13,503 nt of DNA, taken from assembly GCA_030606765.1 (NCBI GenBank), contig JAUWFX010000028.1:1-13503 (forward strand). Direction: 5' to 3'. Shown piece after piece: positions 3,955 to 13,503 of this stretch (positions within the stretch are counted from its first letter, which is position 1; each line of letters opens with the position of its first letter). The notes below the pieces were generated by a model. It was not told where the DNA came from. It did not search any database and was given only the letters and a program-made list of their open reading frames with translations. The DNA is from Dehalococcoidia bacterium (lineage in GTDB: Bacteria > Chloroflexota > Dehalococcoidia > GIF9 > AB-539-J10). The position numbers were made by a program, and so were the translations under genes.

Positions 3955-4260
3955 CTAGTGTGCCTTAACGTTAATCTTCAAACTATCTATTTTGCCCACC
4001 CCCTTTAATGAAGAGACCAAACCGGTTATTGTGTTGGTGATAATATCACTGGGGAAAGGGGTAAGGGGAAGTTCATTCCCATTGACGACGAGCTTGACAT
4101 CTCCTCGCTCCAGATAAAGTTCCAGGTCCCGTATGTTTTCAGCTCCTTTCAAGCAAGAGACTACAGCGACCACAGTTCGAGTTAAAAACTCCTCGGCGAA
4201 GGGGTTGAGTTCAGTAGATACATTGTTAACCGCAAGCTCTGTCCCAAGGTTCTTTTCCAT
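3955..4260 (-). CDS. Hypothetical protein with an internal tandem duplication (101 aa)
   Basis: I do not recognise a named family. The gene is credible because AGGAGGTG lies directly before the ATG at ideal spacing and it fits the gene order. The protein consists of two similar halves: residues 20-51 (starting PFAEEFLTRTV and containing VSCLKG) and 68-99 (starting PFPSDIITNTI and containing VSSLKG). I count 11 identities in 32 positions, with many conservative changes and a constant offset of 48. Each half would be an alpha helix followed by a beta strand. There is no signal peptide or membrane segment and only one cysteine. It lies 77 bases after the acetyl-CoA synthetase gene and may be co-transcribed with it, but a link to acetate metabolism is speculation. 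Confidence 0.75.
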   Translation of the reverse strand: MEKNLGTELAVNNVSTELNPFAEEFLTRTVVAVVSCLKGAENIRDLELYLERGDVKLVVNGNELPLTPFPSDIITNTITGLVSSLKGVGKIDSLKINVKAH

Positions 4261-6454: not shown

Positions 6455-6802
6455 CTAAAATTCAACCAGCACCTTGCCATCTTCAACCTTAACATTGTAC
6501 ACCTTAAGGGCCTTGGACATCTTGAGTGCACTACCGAGCTTCGACATCAGCCCTCCCTTTAACCAACGCACCACCTGCCCATTACTGATATCAAATCGAG
6601 AGCCATGCAGGGGACAAGTGACCACAGTCCCTTCGAGTTTACCCTGTGATAAGTCGCCCTTCATATGGGGACAGCGATTATCAACGGCGTAGTACTTATC
6701 TCCAACCCTGGTCAGGAGGATTTCTCGCCCCTCTGCAATTACCATCTTCATTGTTTCGCTTTTCAGTTCTTCTATTTTAGCTACCTCTATAAACTTACTC
6801 AT
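6455..6802 (-). CDS. Rieske-type [2Fe-2S] ferredoxin
   Basis: The 115-residue soluble protein has the two Rieske cluster motifs CPH at 44-46 and CPLHGSRFD at 63-71, separated by 16 residues. The two cysteines and two histidines (C44, H46, C63, H66) coordinate a [2Fe-2S] cluster. Length and the absence of a signal or membrane segment match stand-alone ferredoxins of the NirD/BphF type, which pass electrons to oxygenases or reductases or act as general carriers. No oxygenase is nearby, so the partner is unknown. An insertion of about 15 residues (LKGGLMSKLGSALKM) before the final strands looks like a family variation. GGGGGTG lies upstream of the ATG. It follows rubrerythrin by 53 bases, which suggests a redox role in the stress response. 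Confidence 0.92.
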   Translation of the reverse strand: MSKFIEVAKIEELKSETMKMVIAEGREILLTRVGDKYYAVDNRCPHMKGDLSQGKLEGTVVTCPLHGSRFDISNGQVVRWLKGGLMSKLGSALKMSKALKVYNVKVEDGKVLVEF

Positions 6803-6855: not shown

Positions 6856-7464
6856 CTAGACTACCTTCCGGAATTTCTCTTTGGGAGCGCCACAAATAGG
6901 GCATTCATCAGGGAGGACGCCGTCGGAGACGTGGCCGCAGACCTGGCAGACGTAGTACTCGGTCTCCTCTTCAGCCATCGTATGCGCCAGCGCCTTCTTA
7001 TAGAGCTTGGCGTGCCCCTTCTCCACATCGCGGGAATAACCCAGGACCGTCGCCACGCTCGTATTACCTTCCTCGTTTGCCTCTCTAATGAATTGAGGAT
7101 AAGTGCTGGCAGCCAAGTTTTCCCTCTCAAAGGCACTCTCAAGGTTCTCCTGGGTGCTGGACACAGCGTCCAGAAGGCGGAAGTGGTTGAAGGCGTGGAC
7201 TGACTCAGCTTCAGCGATAGCACGGAACAACCTCGCAACCTGAGAATAGCCCTCTTGCTCAGCCTTCATGGCAAAAGCCAAGTTCCTCAGATTTGCCTGG
7301 GACTCGGCCACGAAACCAGCTTTAAGATTCTTCAAGGTCTTAGTCCCTTTTATCCCGGACACCTCATGCGGGATGAGCTTCTCTGCCTCAGCACCACAGA
7401 CCGGGCAGCGGTGAGGTTTGTCGGTGCTGAGTTCTACGTGATGACAATTAGTACACTTCCACAT
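6856..7464 (-). CDS. rbr: Rubrerythrin with rubredoxin-like domains at both ends
   Basis: The 202-residue protein reduces peroxide with electrons passed through rubredoxin-type iron. A ferritin-like diiron bundle occupies about 45-160, with E54 (in AESQANL), E87/H90 (EAESVHA), E113/E115 (FERENL) and E148/H151 (DVEKGH) at the ligand positions. The C-terminal rubredoxin-like domain has CQVCG at 173-177 and CPICGAP at 188-194. Unlike classical rubrerythrin, a second four-cysteine knuckle (C4, C7, C20, C23) precedes the bundle. AGGGGG lies upstream of the ATG. The gene starts 20 bases after the YHS gene and 189 bases after CopA, indicating one transcript. The N-terminal knuckle may bind iron or zinc; which one cannot be told from sequence. 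Confidence 0.94.
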   Translation of the reverse strand: MWKCTNCHHVELSTDKPHRCPVCGAEAEKLIPHEVSGIKGTKTLKNLKAGFVAESQANLRNLAFAMKAEQEGYSQVARLFRAIAEAESVHAFNHFRLLDAVSSTQENLESAFERENLAASTYPQFIREANEEGNTSVATVLGYSRDVEKGHAKLYKKALAHTMAEEETEYYVCQVCGHVSDGVLPDECPICGAPKEKFRKVV

Positions 7465-7653: not shown

Positions 7654-10140
7654 TTAAGTGCCAAGTCTGACTGTCTTAAACCTCCTTAGACGCAGGGAGT
7701 TTGATACGACAGTGATGGAGCTAGCCGCCATGGCTGCTGCGGCCAGAATCGGATTCAAGAAACCATACTCACCCAAGATGAAACGAAGCCCAGAGGGTAC
7801 ACCTACATTCCCGAAGGCAAGATACAATACCCCAGCTGCTATTGGGATTAGAGCAATATTGTAAGCAAAGGCCCAGAAGAGGTTCTGCTTGATAGTCCTC
7901 ATGGTCCGCTTGCTCAGGGATATAGCGGTTACCACTCCCATCAAATCTCCTCTAATCAGGGTAATATCTCCAGTCTCCATGGCAACATCGGTACCCGTAC
8001 CAATAGCGATACCAACATCCGCCTGGGCTAATGCCGGAGCATCGTTAATTCCATCGCCCACCATTGCCACCACCTTTCCCTCCTCTTGTAATTTCTTGAC
8101 CTCTCTGGTCTTATGCTCAGGGAGCACCTCAGCCAGGACACGGTCAATACCCGCCTCTCGAGCAATAGCTTCTGCCGTGCGCCGGTTATCCCCGGTGAGC
8201 ATAGCTGTTTCAATACCCATCTTTCGCAGCGCTTGGAGCGCTTCTTTGGCGCCTGGTTTTAGGGTATCAGCTAAGGCAATGATTCCTGCTACTTGGCTAT
8301 CTCGCCCCAGGAACATTACTGTCTTACCTCCTTCAAGGAGTTCAGCGGCTTCTTTCTCCAGCCCGTTTAGAGAAAAGCCTCGTTCTTTCATTAACTTGAG
8401 GTTGCCCAGAAAAAGCTTCTTGCCCTTCACCGAAGCCTCTATGCCCTGCCCTGGGATGGCATTAAAATCTGAGGACGGAGATAATTCCAACTTCTTCTCT
8501 AGAGCAGCCTGGACCACAGCCTCACCAAGTGGGTGCTCTGAGTTATGTTCAGCGGAGGCAGCTAGCTGGAGGACCTCTTCCTGAGAGAAGGAATGAGCAG
8601 AGATTATGTCAGTCACCACAGGCTCGCCACTGGTCAGAGTGCCTGTCTTATCCAGGAGAGCAGTGTTTATCTGGTGAGCCCTCTCCAGAGCCTCGCCATT
8701 CCTGATGAGAATCCCATGCTCGGCTCCCTTGCCCGTGCCGACCATAATCGCAGTGGGAGTGGCCAGCCCCAAGGCGCAGGGGCAGGCGATAACGAGCACG
8801 GCGACAAAGTTAAGAAAGGCGAAGGTGAGGGCTGGAGCTGGTCCCACGAAATACCAGACTACGAAGGTCACGATGGCAATGCCAATCACTGCTGGCACAA
8901 AGTAGCTGGCGATAACATCAGCAAGACGCTGAATAGGAGCTTTGCTTCCCTGTGCTTCCTCCACCATTCTGACGATATGAGCCAGCGTTGTATCCTTACC
9001 CACCTTGCTTGCTTCGATTTCAAGGCTGCCAGTCTTGTTAATAGTGGCACCAATCACCTCATCAGCTACCTTTTTCTCCACAGGGATACTCTCCCCGGTA
9101 ATCATGGACTCATCAACACTGGAATAGCCCTGGCGAACTATGCCATCTACGGGCACCCTCTCGCCAGGACGTACCAGGATAAAATCACCAACCTGAACCT
9201 CTTCAACGGGAATCTCCCTCTGCTCGCCCTCACGGATAACTAGAGCGGTTTTAGGTTGCATACCGATAATCTTCTTTATTGCTTCCGAGGTCTGTCCTCT
9301 GGCTCTAGCTTCCAGAAAACGGCCAAGAAGAATCAAGGTTATGATCGCCGCTGAGGTATGGAAGTATAAGTGGGGTTCCACTACACCAGTTGCAAAAAGG
9401 CCGGGGAAAATAACGGCTATCATGCTGTAGAAGTAAGCTACCGAGGTACCTACTGCAATCAGGGTATTCATATCAGAGGTTCTATGTTTCAGGGCTCCCC
9501 ATGCCCCTCGGTAGAATCTCAGACCCGCCCAGAACTGCACTGGCGTAGCCAAAGCTAATAGTAGATAGGACTTGCCAACAAAGGAAGGACCCCAGCCTAG
9601 GGCCATGATTGATGCGGTGAGGATAGCAGCGATAATAAATCTGTTCCGGAGAACTCGAATCTCCCGCTGGGCAGCAGTGGCCACGTCCTCCAGAGCCTGC
9701 GCCTCGGGGCCAAGTTCATAGCCGGCGTCTTTTACCGCCCGTCTCATGTCAGCCAGCCCCGTTCCTTCCAGGTACTCCACGGTAGCCTTCTCCGAGGCCA
9801 GATTCACACTGGCTGAAATCACCCCCGGCACGCTGGAGAGAGCCTCCTCTACTCGGGCAACACAGGAAGCGCAGGTCATTCCGCTTACCGGGAATATGGA
9901 CTTCCTGGTGGCGACCCCATACCCCAATTGCGCGACGGTATTCTTAATCCTGGCAAGGTCTACCTTCTTGGGATCGTATTCTATTGAAGCCTTCTCCGAA
10001 GCGAAGTTAACATCAGCTTGTTCCACACCAGGAGTCTGGGAAAGACCCTTCTTGATAGTAGCTGCACAGGTAGTGCAGGTCATCCCGGTTATATGGATTG
10101 AAGCCTTGTCAGCCTTCTTGGAATTAGTCTTATCAGCCAT
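7654..10140 (-). CDS. copA: Copper-translocating P1B-type ATPase with two HMA domains
   Basis: The 828-residue pump exports Cu(I) from the cytoplasm. In order it has HMA domain 1 (GMTCTTC, 19-25), HMA domain 2 (GMTCASC, 87-93), paired helices from about 165, the actuator TGES (348-351), and the transmembrane CPC motif (453-455). The phosphorylated D497 (DKTGT), the SEHPLGE loop (H536/P537) and GDGINDAP (695-702) follow. NLFWAFAYN (753-761) and MAASS (804-808) complete the Cu(I)-selective P1B-1 signature. Length is typical of two-HMA CopA. A purine-rich GGTGGGG precedes the ATG. It heads a run with the YHS and rubrerythrin genes. The 191 bases before it hold no gene or recognisable CsoR or CueR site, so copper regulation is not shown by the sequence. 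Confidence 0.97.
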
Positions 10141-10331: not shown

Positions 10332-11177
10332 TTAGCCTCGCTTTTCCTCTTCCTTCAGCAAGTCGCTGAATACATCGGCATGGTATACTTCGTGGTCCCT
10401 TATCCGGGTAAGAAGCTCTTTCAGGTCAGGCTCTTTAATTTCTTTGGCAGCGCGGTCATATTCAGCCGCCACCTTTTTCTCAATCTTGATATCGGCCCGA
10501 AGCATATCAGCGGTCTTGGTGGATTTATCAACCTCAATATGCTCAATCCTGGGACTGCCTTTTTTGTCAACCATCTCTTCAGACAGCCATCCCAGATGTT
10601 GCATCTCGTTTATAGCTTGGTCCTCCATTTCCTTCTTGACATCCTTGTTGCGCGTCATATAGGAATGGAGAAGGTATTGAAGGATAACGGTATATTCATG
10701 CTCGATGCCCCAGTTTAGAACCTGGGCAACCTTGTCTTGCCGAGAGCCCCTTAAATCCTTAGCCCCTTCCTTTTGGGCTTTAGTTACAAAGTGTTCGAAG
10801 TCGCCTCGGTGTGATTTTTCATCGGAGAAAATTCGCTGCAACAGCCGCCTTATCTTAGGGTCGCCGATGGCTTTAATGTGTTCCTCATATAAGGCAATGC
10901 CATCTTTCTCTTGCAGAACATCGTTTTTCATCCAATCGGGAACCGACTCGCCACCCGTGCGCATGTCTCCCCTCTCAAGGCTGGGAGTGCCGCCAAGGCC
11001 GACTATAGTCTCAGCCAGCCAGTCAAAATGGCGCATCTCCTCCCGGGCGATAGCCTCGATTTCACAGGCCATCTCGCCCTCACCCATGGCATAGGCGTGG
11101 ACCAAATATTGAATGACGGCTGCGTGTTCGCCCTCAAGGTCCTGATTTAGTAAAGCAATAATCTTATCCTTGTCCAT
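10332..11177 (-). CDS. Tandem ferritin-like (bacterioferritin-type) protein, two diiron domains
   Basis: The 281-residue protein contains two complete bacterioferritin-like four-helix domains. Domain 1 (about 1-135) has E17, E47/H50 (EEMRH), E90 (LQEKDG) and E120/H123 (DEKSH). Domain 2 (about 148-278) has E161, E191/H194 (NEMQH), E233 (KIEKK) and E263/H266 (HEVYH). Each set matches the dinuclear iron ligands of bacterioferritin. M48 and M192 occupy the place of the heme-ligating methionine of bacterioferritin (Met52 in E. coli). Known single-domain relatives oxidise and store iron; this two-domain form may detoxify peroxide or buffer iron. The frame extends upstream to a TTG at 11198, but the ATG at 11177 has AGGAGG at five bases and is the start. 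It follows the winged-helix gene, and CopA follows it. Confidence 0.9.
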   Translation of the reverse strand: MDKDKIIALLNQDLEGEHAAVIQYLVHAYAMGEGEMACEIEAIAREEMRHFDWLAETIVGLGGTPSLERGDMRTGGESVPDWMKNDVLQEKDGIALYEEHIKAIGDPKIRRLLQRIFSDEKSHRGDFEHFVTKAQKEGAKDLRGSRQDKVAQVLNWGIEHEYTVILQYLLHSYMTRNKDVKKEMEDQAINEMQHLGWLSEEMVDKKGSPRIEHIEVDKSTKTADMLRADIKIEKKVAAEYDRAAKEIKEPDLKELLTRIRDHEVYHADVFSDLLKEEEKRG

Positions 11178-11182
11178 TTGTC

Positions 11183-11188
11183 CCTCCT
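11183..11188 (-). promoter_or_regulatory. Ribosome binding site fixing the ferritin-like start
   Basis: AGGAGG on the minus strand lies five bases before the ATG at 11177. It would fall inside the coding sequence if the in-frame TTG at 11198 were used, so it selects the ATG. Confidence 0.85.
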
Positions 11189-11546: not shown

Positions 11547-12197
11547 TTACAGCTTCTTTTTGCAGAGATACCAATCCGTACACTCGTACCCCTGCTTGAG
11601 TCTCTCTTCAGCCATTTCCTGGGTGTTTGGCGGTGGCACCACTACCATGTCGCCCGGCCGCCAGTTAGCTGGAGTAGCCACAGCATTCTTGTCCGTCGTT
11701 TGTAATGCATCTATTATTCTCAGTATCTCATCCATGGTCCTGCCGGTGGTCAGCGGGTAGTACAGTATTGTCCTGATAACCTGGTTAGGGTCGATTATGA
11801 ACACGCATCGGACAGTCTCGGTCTTGCTCTGACCGGGGTGAATCATGCCATAGGCCAGAGAAACCTCCTTGCTGAGGTCAGCGATAATGGGGAATGGTAT
11901 CTTTACCTTGGTTTTCTCCTCCACATTGCGCACCCAGGCGATATGCGAAGAGACACTATCTACACTAAGGCCCAGCAGCTCTACTCCCCGTTTTTGCAGT
12001 TCGGGATGAATCTCGCTAAAAGCGATGAACTCAGTAGTGCACACCGGGGTAAAATCCGCCGGGTGAGAAAAGAGAATTAGCCAGCTTCCTTTGAAATCTT
12101 CCAGCTTGAGTACCCCATGAGTGGTAACTGCCTCAAAAGCTGGTGCCGGCTCGCCTATCCGGGGCATGTGACCTATTTGTTCTTTTATCTCTTCCAT
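11547..12197 (-). CDS. Thioredoxin-fold peroxiredoxin (Prx6/archaeal-type, C-terminal CxDWxxC)
   Basis: The 216-residue enzyme reduces hydrogen peroxide and organic peroxides. The active site PADFTPVCTTEF carries the peroxidatic C53 with T50 and P46; R130 is the probable catalytic arginine. The C terminus has C206 and C212 in GYECTDWYLC, the arrangement of archaeal peroxiredoxins such as the Aeropyrum enzyme (C50, C207, C213). A resolving cysteine is therefore likely, and it is not a true 1-Cys enzyme. The frame continues upstream to 12254, but the ATG at 12197 has AGGAGG at five bases and a normal Prx6 N terminus. It starts 14 bases after superoxide reductase, whose product is peroxide, so the pairing is functionally coherent. 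Confidence 0.95.
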   Translation of the reverse strand: MEEIKEQIGHMPRIGEPAPAFEAVTTHGVLKLEDFKGSWLILFSHPADFTPVCTTEFIAFSEIHPELQKRGVELLGLSVDSVSSHIAWVRNVEEKTKVKIPFPIIADLSKEVSLAYGMIHPGQSKTETVRCVFIIDPNQVIRTILYYPLTTGRTMDEILRIIDALQTTDKNAVATPANWRPGDMVVVPPPNTQEMAEERLKQGYECTDWYLCKKKL

Positions 12198-12202
12198 GTT
12201 TG

Positions 12203-12208
12203 CCTCCT
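12203..12208 (-). promoter_or_regulatory. Ribosome binding site fixing the peroxiredoxin start
   Basis: AGGAGG on the minus strand, five bases before the ATG at 12197. The upstream extension of the frame (to 12254) overlaps the superoxide reductase gene and lacks family similarity, so it is not used. Confidence 0.85.
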
Positions 12209-12211
12209 TTT

Positions 12212-12559
12212 TTAGATTTCCAAACAGTTTTCCCAGACGCCGTGTATGTTGCAATAAGAGACAGCGCAGAAGGCTTTAAATTGCTCCACTGGCACCTGAA
12301 ACCTGACGTTGGGATTGGTATAGGACGGGGCAAAGGCAGACCTGCCCAGGTTTATTACCTGTCCATCTTTCATCACTCCATAAAGCTCTATCCAGGCAAT
12401 ATGATGTTCCACAGTGTTGGGATGAGGCACTTCTTTACCCACCACTACATGGATAATATCTACACCTGCCTCACCCTTTCCTTTACCAACCTCGATTATT
12501 GGGACGTGTTTTTCCTTCCCTTCAGCTTCCTTTCCTTTTAAAATGTCTCCAAATTTCAT
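12212..12559 (-). CDS. Class II superoxide reductase (neelaredoxin-type)
   Basis: The 115-residue enzyme reduces superoxide to hydrogen peroxide in the cytoplasm of anaerobes without producing O2. The square-pyramidal iron site can be read directly: H18 (KEKHVP), H46 (VPHPN), H52 (VEHHIAW), and C103/H106 (SYCNIHG). E16 and K17 match the conserved Glu-Lys pair that assists catalysis (E14/K15 in the Pyrococcus furiosus enzyme). There is no N-terminal desulforedoxin domain, so it is class II (1Fe-SOR), not desulfoferrodoxin. AAGGAGG lies seven bases before the ATG. It precedes peroxiredoxin by 14 bases. Its electron donor is presumably a rubredoxin; none is encoded in the window apart from the rubredoxin-like domains of rubrerythrin. 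Confidence 0.95.
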   Translation of the reverse strand: MKFGDILKGKEAEGKEKHVPIIEVGKGKGEAGVDIIHVVVGKEVPHPNTVEHHIAWIELYGVMKDGQVINLGRSAFAPSYTNPNVRFQVPVEQFKAFCAVSYCNIHGVWENCLEI

Positions 12560-12807: not shown

Positions 12808-13503
12808 TCAGGCAAAGCCGCGCTCTTTATGCTTTTCTGCGATGGTGTTAGCCAAGTTGTCCAGGGCTTTGAAATGCTCTTCTCTGGGAAATCCCTTGCT
12901 TATCACGGGAGCCAGTACCTCCACTTTTAGGTTGGGAATCATTCCGCTGAGCTGTTCTACAGCCTTGCTGCCCCAGCCATAGGAGCCGATAATGGAGATG
13001 AACTGGAGTTTGGGTTTTAGGGCATTAGCTAGAAGTGCAGCATAAGCAACATTGGGATGTGGACCAAGCAAAACAGTAGGCGTGCCAATGACCAAAGTGG
13101 CTGCATCCACCAATGCCATGGCCAGTTTCCCAATATCAGTTGCCGCCAGGTTGAACTGCTTAACCGTGACACCTTTGCCAGCCAAGGCTCCAACAAAATA
13201 TTCCACCATTTTTTGGGTGCTGCCATGCATGGAGATATAAGGCAAGACCACTATGTTTTTTGGTTCGTCGAATGCCCAGCTATGATAGGCTTTCAGGATA
13301 AACTCAGGCCTATCGTGCATGGGGCCGTGGCTGGGAGCAATAATGTCAATCGCGTAGTCCTTTATTTTCACCAGGTTCTTCTGGATATTCGTTTGGAAGG
13401 GCATCATGATTTCGGCATAATATCTCTTGGCGGCTTCATAGATCTGCCCCCCATCCCTGACATACAGGTCGGTTGTAGCTAAGTGGGAACCCAAGAAATC
13501 GCA
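12808..13503 (-). CDS. fprA: Flavodiiron protein (FprA/ROO type), C-terminal part
   Basis: The frame enters from the right edge; 231 residues remain, starting CDFLGSH. D2 is the probable bridging aspartate and H59 (APSHGPMH, 56-63) the last histidine ligand of the diiron metallo-beta-lactamase-like domain. A flavodoxin domain runs from about 82 to the end, with the FMN loop SMHGSTQKM (91-99) and later GTPTVLLGPHPNV and GSYGWGSKA at the other flavin contacts. Flavodiiron proteins reduce O2 to water or NO to N2O in the cytoplasm; which one is not readable here. No C-terminal rubredoxin domain is fused. It heads the visible stress cluster. The remaining half of the diiron domain lies outside the window. 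Confidence 0.94.
   Translation of the reverse strand, partial: CDFLGSHLATTDLYVRDGGQIYEAAKRYYAEIMMPFQTNIQKNLVKIKDYAIDIIAPSHGPMHDRPEFILKAYHSWAFDEPKNIVVLPYISMHGSTQKMVEYFVGALAGKGVTVKQFNLAATDIGKLAMALVDAATLVIGTPTVLLGPHPNVAYAALLANALKPKLQFISIIGSYGWGSKAVEQLSGMIPNLKVEVLAPVISKGFPREEHFKALDNLANTIAEKHKERGFA

Follow-up and report, generated by a model that had tools for sequence, protein, structure and literature searches.

The window, that is, the whole 13,503-nucleotide stretch of DNA analyzed here, encodes on its minus strand (10332–11177) a 281-residue tandem ferritin-like protein of the two-bundle bacterioferritin type, which we consider quite probably to be a shell-free, mini-bacterioferritin-like ferroxidase, of predicted activity and assembly state, within an oxygen-defence island of a Dehalococcoidia-like organism. 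In the proposed course of events, an ancient internal duplication would have given rise to a tandem two-bundle enzyme, each half of which would oxidize Fe(II) with O2 or H2O2 through a complete canonical diiron site, as its conserved ligands suggest. Aquificales-type and some Chloroflexota members of the family carry a C-terminal cargo-loading peptide, and the genes of the latter adjoin an encapsulin gene; since neither such a tail nor an encapsulin was found in its own branch, the window protein most likely acts free of any encapsulin shell, its genome presumably having none. Its role is most likely that of a soluble ferroxidase that detoxifies iron and peroxide, encoded in the company of genes for superoxide reductase, peroxiredoxin, rubrerythrin, and a flavodiiron protein.

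Two diiron bundles from an internal duplication

The frame runs on the minus strand of the window sequence from an ATG at 11177 to a stop ending at 10332, with a directly legible ribosome-binding site (AGGAGGG; 11182–11188, minus strand) 5' of the start codon, and its assignment draws on the open reading frame, Pfam, relatives, and AlphaFold2. The Pfam Ferritin profile (PF00210) matches the protein in two stretches (E 2.4e-27; 96 bits against a gathering cut-off of 24.5), and the AlphaFold2 model, built on an input alignment of 58 tandem rows that included the window protein, comprises eight helices in two four-helix bundles (mean pLDDT 96.8, pTM 0.91). The N-terminal bundle (residues 3–137; 10767–11171, minus strand), delimited by model helices 3–31, 35–60, 79–103, and 107–137 and by ligand conservation, contains the ligands E17, E47, H50, E90, E120, and H123; the C-terminal bundle (residues 149–280; 10338–10733, minus strand), delimited likewise by helices 149–174, 178–204, 222–246, and 250–280, contains E161, E191, H194, E233, E263, and H266; and the modeled linker between them spans residues 138–148 (10734–10766, minus strand). 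Sequence and alignment place a methionine at the bacterioferritin heme-ligand position in each half (Met48, codon at 11034–11036; Met192, codon at 10602–10604; both minus strand). Neither half has a helix E in the model, each being a bare four-helix bundle, and the chain ends in KEEEKRG. The two complete bacterioferritin-type diiron bundles that the original prediction had placed in a single chain are confirmed by the double PF00210 match and the model, and all twelve diiron ligands that it named, together with M48 and M192, were read directly in the protein sequence.

Prediction of the monomer structure had been proposed as a check, and both halves emerged from the model and the fold search as bacterioferritin-like bundles. 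The best folds in a PDB structure search were mini-bacterioferritin (9qq4/9qq5), followed by a Dps-like protein and bacterioferritins; among the matches listed, each spans one bundle, and the one full-length solved relative (9viw, discussed below) does not appear, the end date of the fold library (2026-04-08) possibly predating it. A viral structure library yielded no match at E ≤0.001, and PHROGs yielded one unnamed family. A trivial origin of the tandem arrangement, wherein a sequencing error or misassembly joined two adjacent single-domain genes, is hardly credible and was ruled out: the best 120 of 3365 relatives are all 278–284 residues long, tandem forms occur at 80 loci in public genomes, and the structure of a full-length relative has been solved.

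Conservation was gauged over 320 tandem rows, namely the window protein with its 119 closest listed relatives, 80 genome loci, and 120 proteins termed Aquificales-type, which are the best 120 of 127 matches to 9viw (rows P0121–P0240). Eleven of the 12 diiron ligands are conserved in 316–320 of these rows, with gaps and three individual rows making up the difference. As for E191, the remaining ligand, every Chloroflexota-type row that shows the position has it, and the C halves of all 120 Aquificales-type rows have Ser in its place but retain M192 and H194; the second diiron site of these relatives is thus probably altered or dead, and the halves are, as far as the alignment goes, specialized.

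The relatedness of the halves is directly apparent, as they share 31% identity over 136 columns (BLASTP E 2e-22). A tree was computed from 21 N and 21 C halves of 21 tandem proteins, 16 single-domain mini-bacterioferritins (drawn from 120 listed), four bacterioferritins, and one DpsL; it was flagged for several long branches, and its bootstrap was still short of convergence. All 42 halves fall on one side of a branch separating them from the bacterioferritins, mini-bacterioferritins, and DpsL (support 100/97), with the C halves together on one side (99/91) and the N halves likewise, though weakly (45/78). This topology fits a single duplication preceding the split between the Chloroflexota and Aquificales-type proteins. 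The old duplication and subsequent divergence surmised at the outset are accordingly supported by the separation of the halves, by the grouping of the C halves, and by the uniform Ser at E191 in the Aquificales-type rows.

Family identity, cargo peptide, and encapsulin

A search of 5.8 billion proteins returned 3365 relatives at E ≤0.001; few of the best 120, a set that counts the window protein itself, carry an organism name, and those that do come from Dehalococcoidia or Chloroflexota. In GTDB genomes, at least 129 tandem matches were confirmed, of which 80 loci were kept; their titles are nearly all Dehalococcoidia, Dehalococcoidales, Anaerolineales, Chloroflexi, or Chloroflexota, along with four Deltaproteobacteria. 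The sole full-length solved relative found, PDB 9viw ("Bacterioferritin"; 33% identity, E 4.5e-40), has the same sequence as Thermocrinis minervae protein P0121 throughout the stretch searched, and the named proteins among the best 120 of its 127 matches are mostly Aquificales. The window protein differs from 9viw in that the C half of the latter has Ser in place of ligand E191 and P0121 ends in the peptide-like FTIGGL. No paper naming 9VIW was found in a literature search that had most subscription journals and bioRxiv outside its reach.

A two-bundle "bacterioferritin" has been reported as a Family 1 encapsulin cargo in Aquificae and Chloroflexi (Andreas and Giessen, 2021; PMC8346489, accessible in part), and the window family appears to be this class, as matched by description and host phyla rather than by accessions. 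The proteins studied here have in common with that class two four-helix bundles per chain, and the relatives share with it, going by the accessible portion of the paper, the C-terminal peptide and, in Chloroflexota, the adjacent encapsulin. The window protein, in contrast, lacks the cargo peptide, and three of the genomes closest to it (L001, L003, and L005; 87–93% identity) lack encapsulin. It is no orphan: in outline, its family has been known as a putative cargo of encapsulins. The original prediction named an already characterized two-domain family without heme as a finding that would refute it, and this applies by half: the family is in print as putative cargo, but the accessible portion of that account is silent on heme for the two-bundle class. 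A 2024 review of encapsulated ferritin-like proteins names, in its accessible portion, four other structural classes (PMC11202242). The same literature search, with the same limits of reach, found no description of tandem proteins that lack the peptide.

The nearest established groups differ from the window protein in instructive ways. Classical bacterioferritin shares with it all diiron ligands of both halves and the heme-methionine position, but the window protein scores 64.5 bits on the bacterioferritin profile TIGR00754, below the cut-off of 125.55, lacks helix E, and has two bundles per chain. It also falls below the cut-offs for encapsulated ferritins (EncB NF058679, 74.7 bits against 90; TIGR04535, 43.9 against 125). 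EncFtn, as described in partly accessible sources, has two main helices and a ferroxidase center that forms on assembly, whereas the window halves are full bundles; the ferroxidase cargo role of EncFtn/EncB may be likened to that of the peptide-bearing relatives only. Mini-bacterioferritin (Mper-mBfr, 9qq4/9qq5; PMC13168243, accessible in part) has one bundle per chain, forms a 12-mer, and was seen with coproheme; the tandem protein has other residues in place of its Arg13 and His27, and its heme-binding methionine (Met52 in the alignment) is present twice, as M48 and M192.

The co-occurrence of cargo peptide and encapsulin is directly observed. At five of the 80 loci (L073, L075, L077, L078, and L080, titled Anaerolineales in one case and Chloroflexi or Chloroflexota in the others), the protein closes with a linker followed by a TVGSL-like peptide; two more (L054 and L079) run off their contigs before the C-terminus, leaving their tails outside view. 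Each of the five has an encapsulin open frame 3' of the tandem ferritin, beginning no more than about 160 bases from the end of that gene (L073, 4412–5302; L075, 3910–4743; L077, 8932–9750; L078, 5050–5844; L080, 5976–6803), and encapsulin genes occur at none of the other loci. Whole-genome searches with the encapsulin profile PF04454 covered 25 host genomes picked from the 80 loci so as to contain all five peptide-bearing ones, mostly metagenome-assembled and of unstated completeness, with the ribosomal L4 control detected in 25 of 25. Encapsulin was found in exactly the five peptide-bearing genomes, in 0 of the 20 genomes of peptide-less relatives, and in 3 of 14 control genomes; these encapsulin searches concerned Chloroflexota-type loci and genomes. 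A phmmer search found no encapsulin open reading frame in the 13.5 kb window. Among Aquificales-type rows, 100 of 120 end in a cargo peptide by a strict pattern and 115 of 120 by a relaxed one, compared with background rates of 2/1198 and 7/1198, respectively, in blocks of 45 residues taken from other parts of these proteins; by either pattern, the peptide is present in 0 of the 120 sequences formed by the window protein and its 119 closest listed relatives.

One locus, L074, lacks peptide and encapsulin alike although it is nested in the tree within a group possessing the two, so that both seem to have been lost together. The link between peptide and encapsulin amounts to one clade and one nested exception and therefore reflects few independent events. 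Placing the Aquificales-type proteins and the peptide-bearing Chloroflexota (with L074) on one side was not rejected in an AU test (p 0.63), for which the group was named after the tree had been seen; the constrained tree was 7.23 log units better than the free one. A single change plus the L074 exception is enough to account for the distribution of the peptide, with gain or loss depending on the root of the unrooted tree. Judged from the genomes and proteins searched, the tail-less branch, in which no encapsulin was found, is the larger one and consists mostly of Dehalococcoidia; the window protein is one of its members.

The methionine pair, heme, and assembly

M48 and M192 align with Met50 of mini-bacterioferritin, which, in the accessible portion of its description, is the axial coproheme ligand at the twofold interface of the dimer (PMC13168243); the original prediction was thus correct that both halves have methionine at the bacterioferritin heme-ligand position. 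It further supposed that the covalent pseudo-dimer could hold a heme, a proposal that the evidence leaves unsupported. In its fullest form, one heme or Fe-coproporphyrin III would sit between M48 and M192 at the internal pseudo-twofold and serve to reduce and release stored iron, which we regard as unlikely. The constancy of the pair speaks for this reading: M48 and M192 are each Met in 319 of the 320 tandem rows, with one gap apiece, whereas four other methionine columns of the C half, to which the comparison was restricted, have Met in only 155, 156, 195, and 246 of 319–320 rows. M192 moreover persists in all 120 Aquificales-type rows despite Ser at E191, and the best fold match binds coproheme through the equivalent methionine at its dimer interface. 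Chance is excluded for the pair because each of its members is so nearly invariant, and we conclude from the alignment that the pair is under strong selection.

The surroundings of the methionines point the other way. Arg13 of Mper-mBfr, said in the same partly accessible paper to hold the coproheme propionates with Tyr28, is Arg in 118 of the 120 closest listed single-domain relatives of that protein (the other two being gaps), yet is Leu14 and Ile158 in the window protein; the paper records Ile at this position for mini-bacterioferritins other than Mper-mBfr and anticipates that the heme of these is a different one (PMC13168243). The Tyr28 equivalents are kept as Tyr29 and Tyr173, but are Phe in nearly all Aquificales-type rows, and the mini-bacterioferritin signature residue His29 (Mper His27), found in 106 of the 120 single-domain Mper-mBfr relatives listed, is replaced by Ala28 and Ser172. 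The Dps-like protein PA4880 also aligns with Met in the same place. Its kind, DpsL, is listed as heme-free in the accessible part of PMC13168243, which also states that the methionine is absent outside mini-bacterioferritins and bacterioferritins; the latter claim does not agree with the PA4880 sequence as aligned here. In the part of the PA4880 paper covered by a look-up of the spelling "heme" (PMC11150526), the word occurs once only, in the reference list, the spelling "haem" lying outside that look-up.

Host gene content likewise weighs against heme. In the 25 genomes, HemC (porphobilinogen deaminase) is solid in four and ferrochelatase is present in one; AhbC matches, listed at a limit of E 1e-60 with weaker ones unseen, are strong but under the cut-off of 650 bits in three (G004, G009, and G014; 504–547 bits). 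AhbD matches occur in 25/25 genomes and 14/14 controls and, being mostly weak, were taken as other radical SAM proteins; G009 and G014 have AhbD-like matches (457 and 473 bits) and G004 a partial one (291 bits), none reaching the cut-off of 500, and matches of 288–318 bits to the AhbD profile in G005, G008, and G011, which have no listed AhbC, are unexplained. Five of the 25 (G004, G006, G009, G013, and G014) thus have HemC, ferrochelatase, or AhbC, singly or in combination, a point in favor of heme, and none of the three is convincing in the remaining 20 (19 if a HemC fragment in G023 is counted), though L4 was detected in every genome. The G023 matches were discounted, that to HemC for scoring 22.1 bits, at the cut-off, with two stops inside, and that to ferrochelatase for scoring 19.5 bits, below its cut-off. 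Cytochrome bd was found in 0/25 host genomes, and no stand-alone Bfd was found in any of the 25, as eight Bfd-type matches (in seven genomes) all lie inside open frames of at least 324 residues. One chromosome-titled record (L056; 2,295,986 bases) comes from a genome without HemC, ferrochelatase, or AhbC and encodes a tandem protein that keeps both methionines. Going by these gene searches, most hosts are unlikely to synthesize heme; in the window protein it is possible but unproven, and for the ferroxidase role proposed here a bound heme would be dispensable.

Covariation offers no arbitration between packings. Mean-field couplings computed from 317 tandem rows (an effective number of about 80) peak on an antiparallel helix B–B' diagonal around M48 and M192, but 34 of 60 within-group shuffles of the half pairing reached or exceeded the observed value, and the peak was rejected as interface evidence for that reason. 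Contact masks were reached by 5/60 shuffles in the antiparallel case and by 1/60 in the parallel one. The covariation signal leans, if at all, against bacterioferritin-like packing as much as for it.

A broader reading, which we hold to be rather doubtful, is that the family has shifted between encapsulin-loaded and shell-free states through gain or loss of the tail together with the shell gene, all the while keeping the invariant methionine pair in hosts of which most are unable to produce heme. These methionines would then either bind heme scavenged from neighbors or have a non-heme role, such as binding a soft metal or forming a structural contact.

As to assembly, six chains could form a 12-bundle, mini-ferritin-like hollow sphere, with pseudo-dimers replacing the homodimers of mini-bacterioferritin, and the protein would then be an iron-storing cage in its own right; we entertain this arrangement only tentatively. 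The halves are bare bundles without helix E, as in the 12-mer mini-bacterioferritin, and Gly34 (Mper Gly32), a residue said in the accessible part of PMC13168243 to mark 12-mers, occurs in the N half of all 120 closest listed rows and of 78 of the 80 loci. It is present, however, in only 28 of the 120 Aquificales-type rows, and its counterpart in the C half, at an offset of 144 in the sequence, is Lys178; the peptide-bearing relatives, furthermore, appear to be packed in shells, which suggests that at least those store no iron alone.

An oxygen-defence island and its significance

The neighborhood of the gene is directly legible in the window, where the following genes stand in order on one (minus) strand: a flavodiiron protein represented by its C-terminal portion, as the window ends within it (12808–13494; NCBIfam flavorubredoxin residues 167–394, below cut-off as a fragment); a desulfoferrodoxin/neelaredoxin-type superoxide reductase (12212–12559; PF01880 E 2.6e-25, TIGR00332 above cut-off); a peroxiredoxin with a 1-Cys C-terminal domain (11547–12254; PF00578, PF10417, and NF009668 above cut-off); the tandem ferritin; a copper-type P-type ATPase with two HMA domains (7654–10140; PF00122, and PF00403 in two stretches), taken as copper-type from its CPC motif; a rubrerythrin with rubredoxin-like domains at both ends (6856–7464; PF02915, PF21349 in two stretches, NF045720); and a Rieske-type ferredoxin (6455–6802; PF00355). 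The tandem ferritin locus is thus an oxygen- and peroxide-defence island. Gene islands of this kind are known from anaerobes, and a protein that removes Fe(II) along with O2 or H2O2 would suit such a setting well. Elsewhere in the window, downstream of an acetyl-CoA synthetase gene, a 101-residue protein (3955–4260) with no Pfam match contains the similar-looking stretches PFPSDIITNTITGLVSSLKG and PFAEEFLTRTVVAVVSCLKG.

Across the 80 loci, same-strand neighbor clusters within 2.5 kb include a mixed cluster with a pyridine-nucleotide oxidoreductase as its representative (32 loci), flavodiiron proteins (22), copper ATPases (20), Rieske proteins (19), SOD-like proteins (18), desulfoferrodoxins (15), three rubrerythrin-like clusters (13, 10, and 9), SufC-like and SufB-like proteins (11 each), PAS-like proteins (9), and peroxiredoxins (8). 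Clusters absent from the window, the SOD-like one among them, were named by eye, and those wholly on the opposite strand were excluded as shadow frames. In 20 of the 80 loci, a copper-type ATPase is found on one side or the other of the tandem ferritin at a distance of at most 1.5 kb, an observation that may be cited beside the soft-metal option for the methionine pair.

What was known before is the two-bundle family as putative encapsulin cargo; what is added here is a tail-less tandem branch wherein no shell was detected and for which no description was found in the literature searched. This large natural set of relatives, tail-less and, as far as searched, shell-less, could serve as a control for what the shell adds to a ferritin-like enzyme. 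Likewise, an invariant methionine pair in hosts seemingly without heme synthesis offers a test of whether this position always means heme. Finally, the preferred reading of the window protein as a shell-free ferroxidase would put a name to a likely iron-handling part of the oxygen defence of uncultured Dehalococcoidia.
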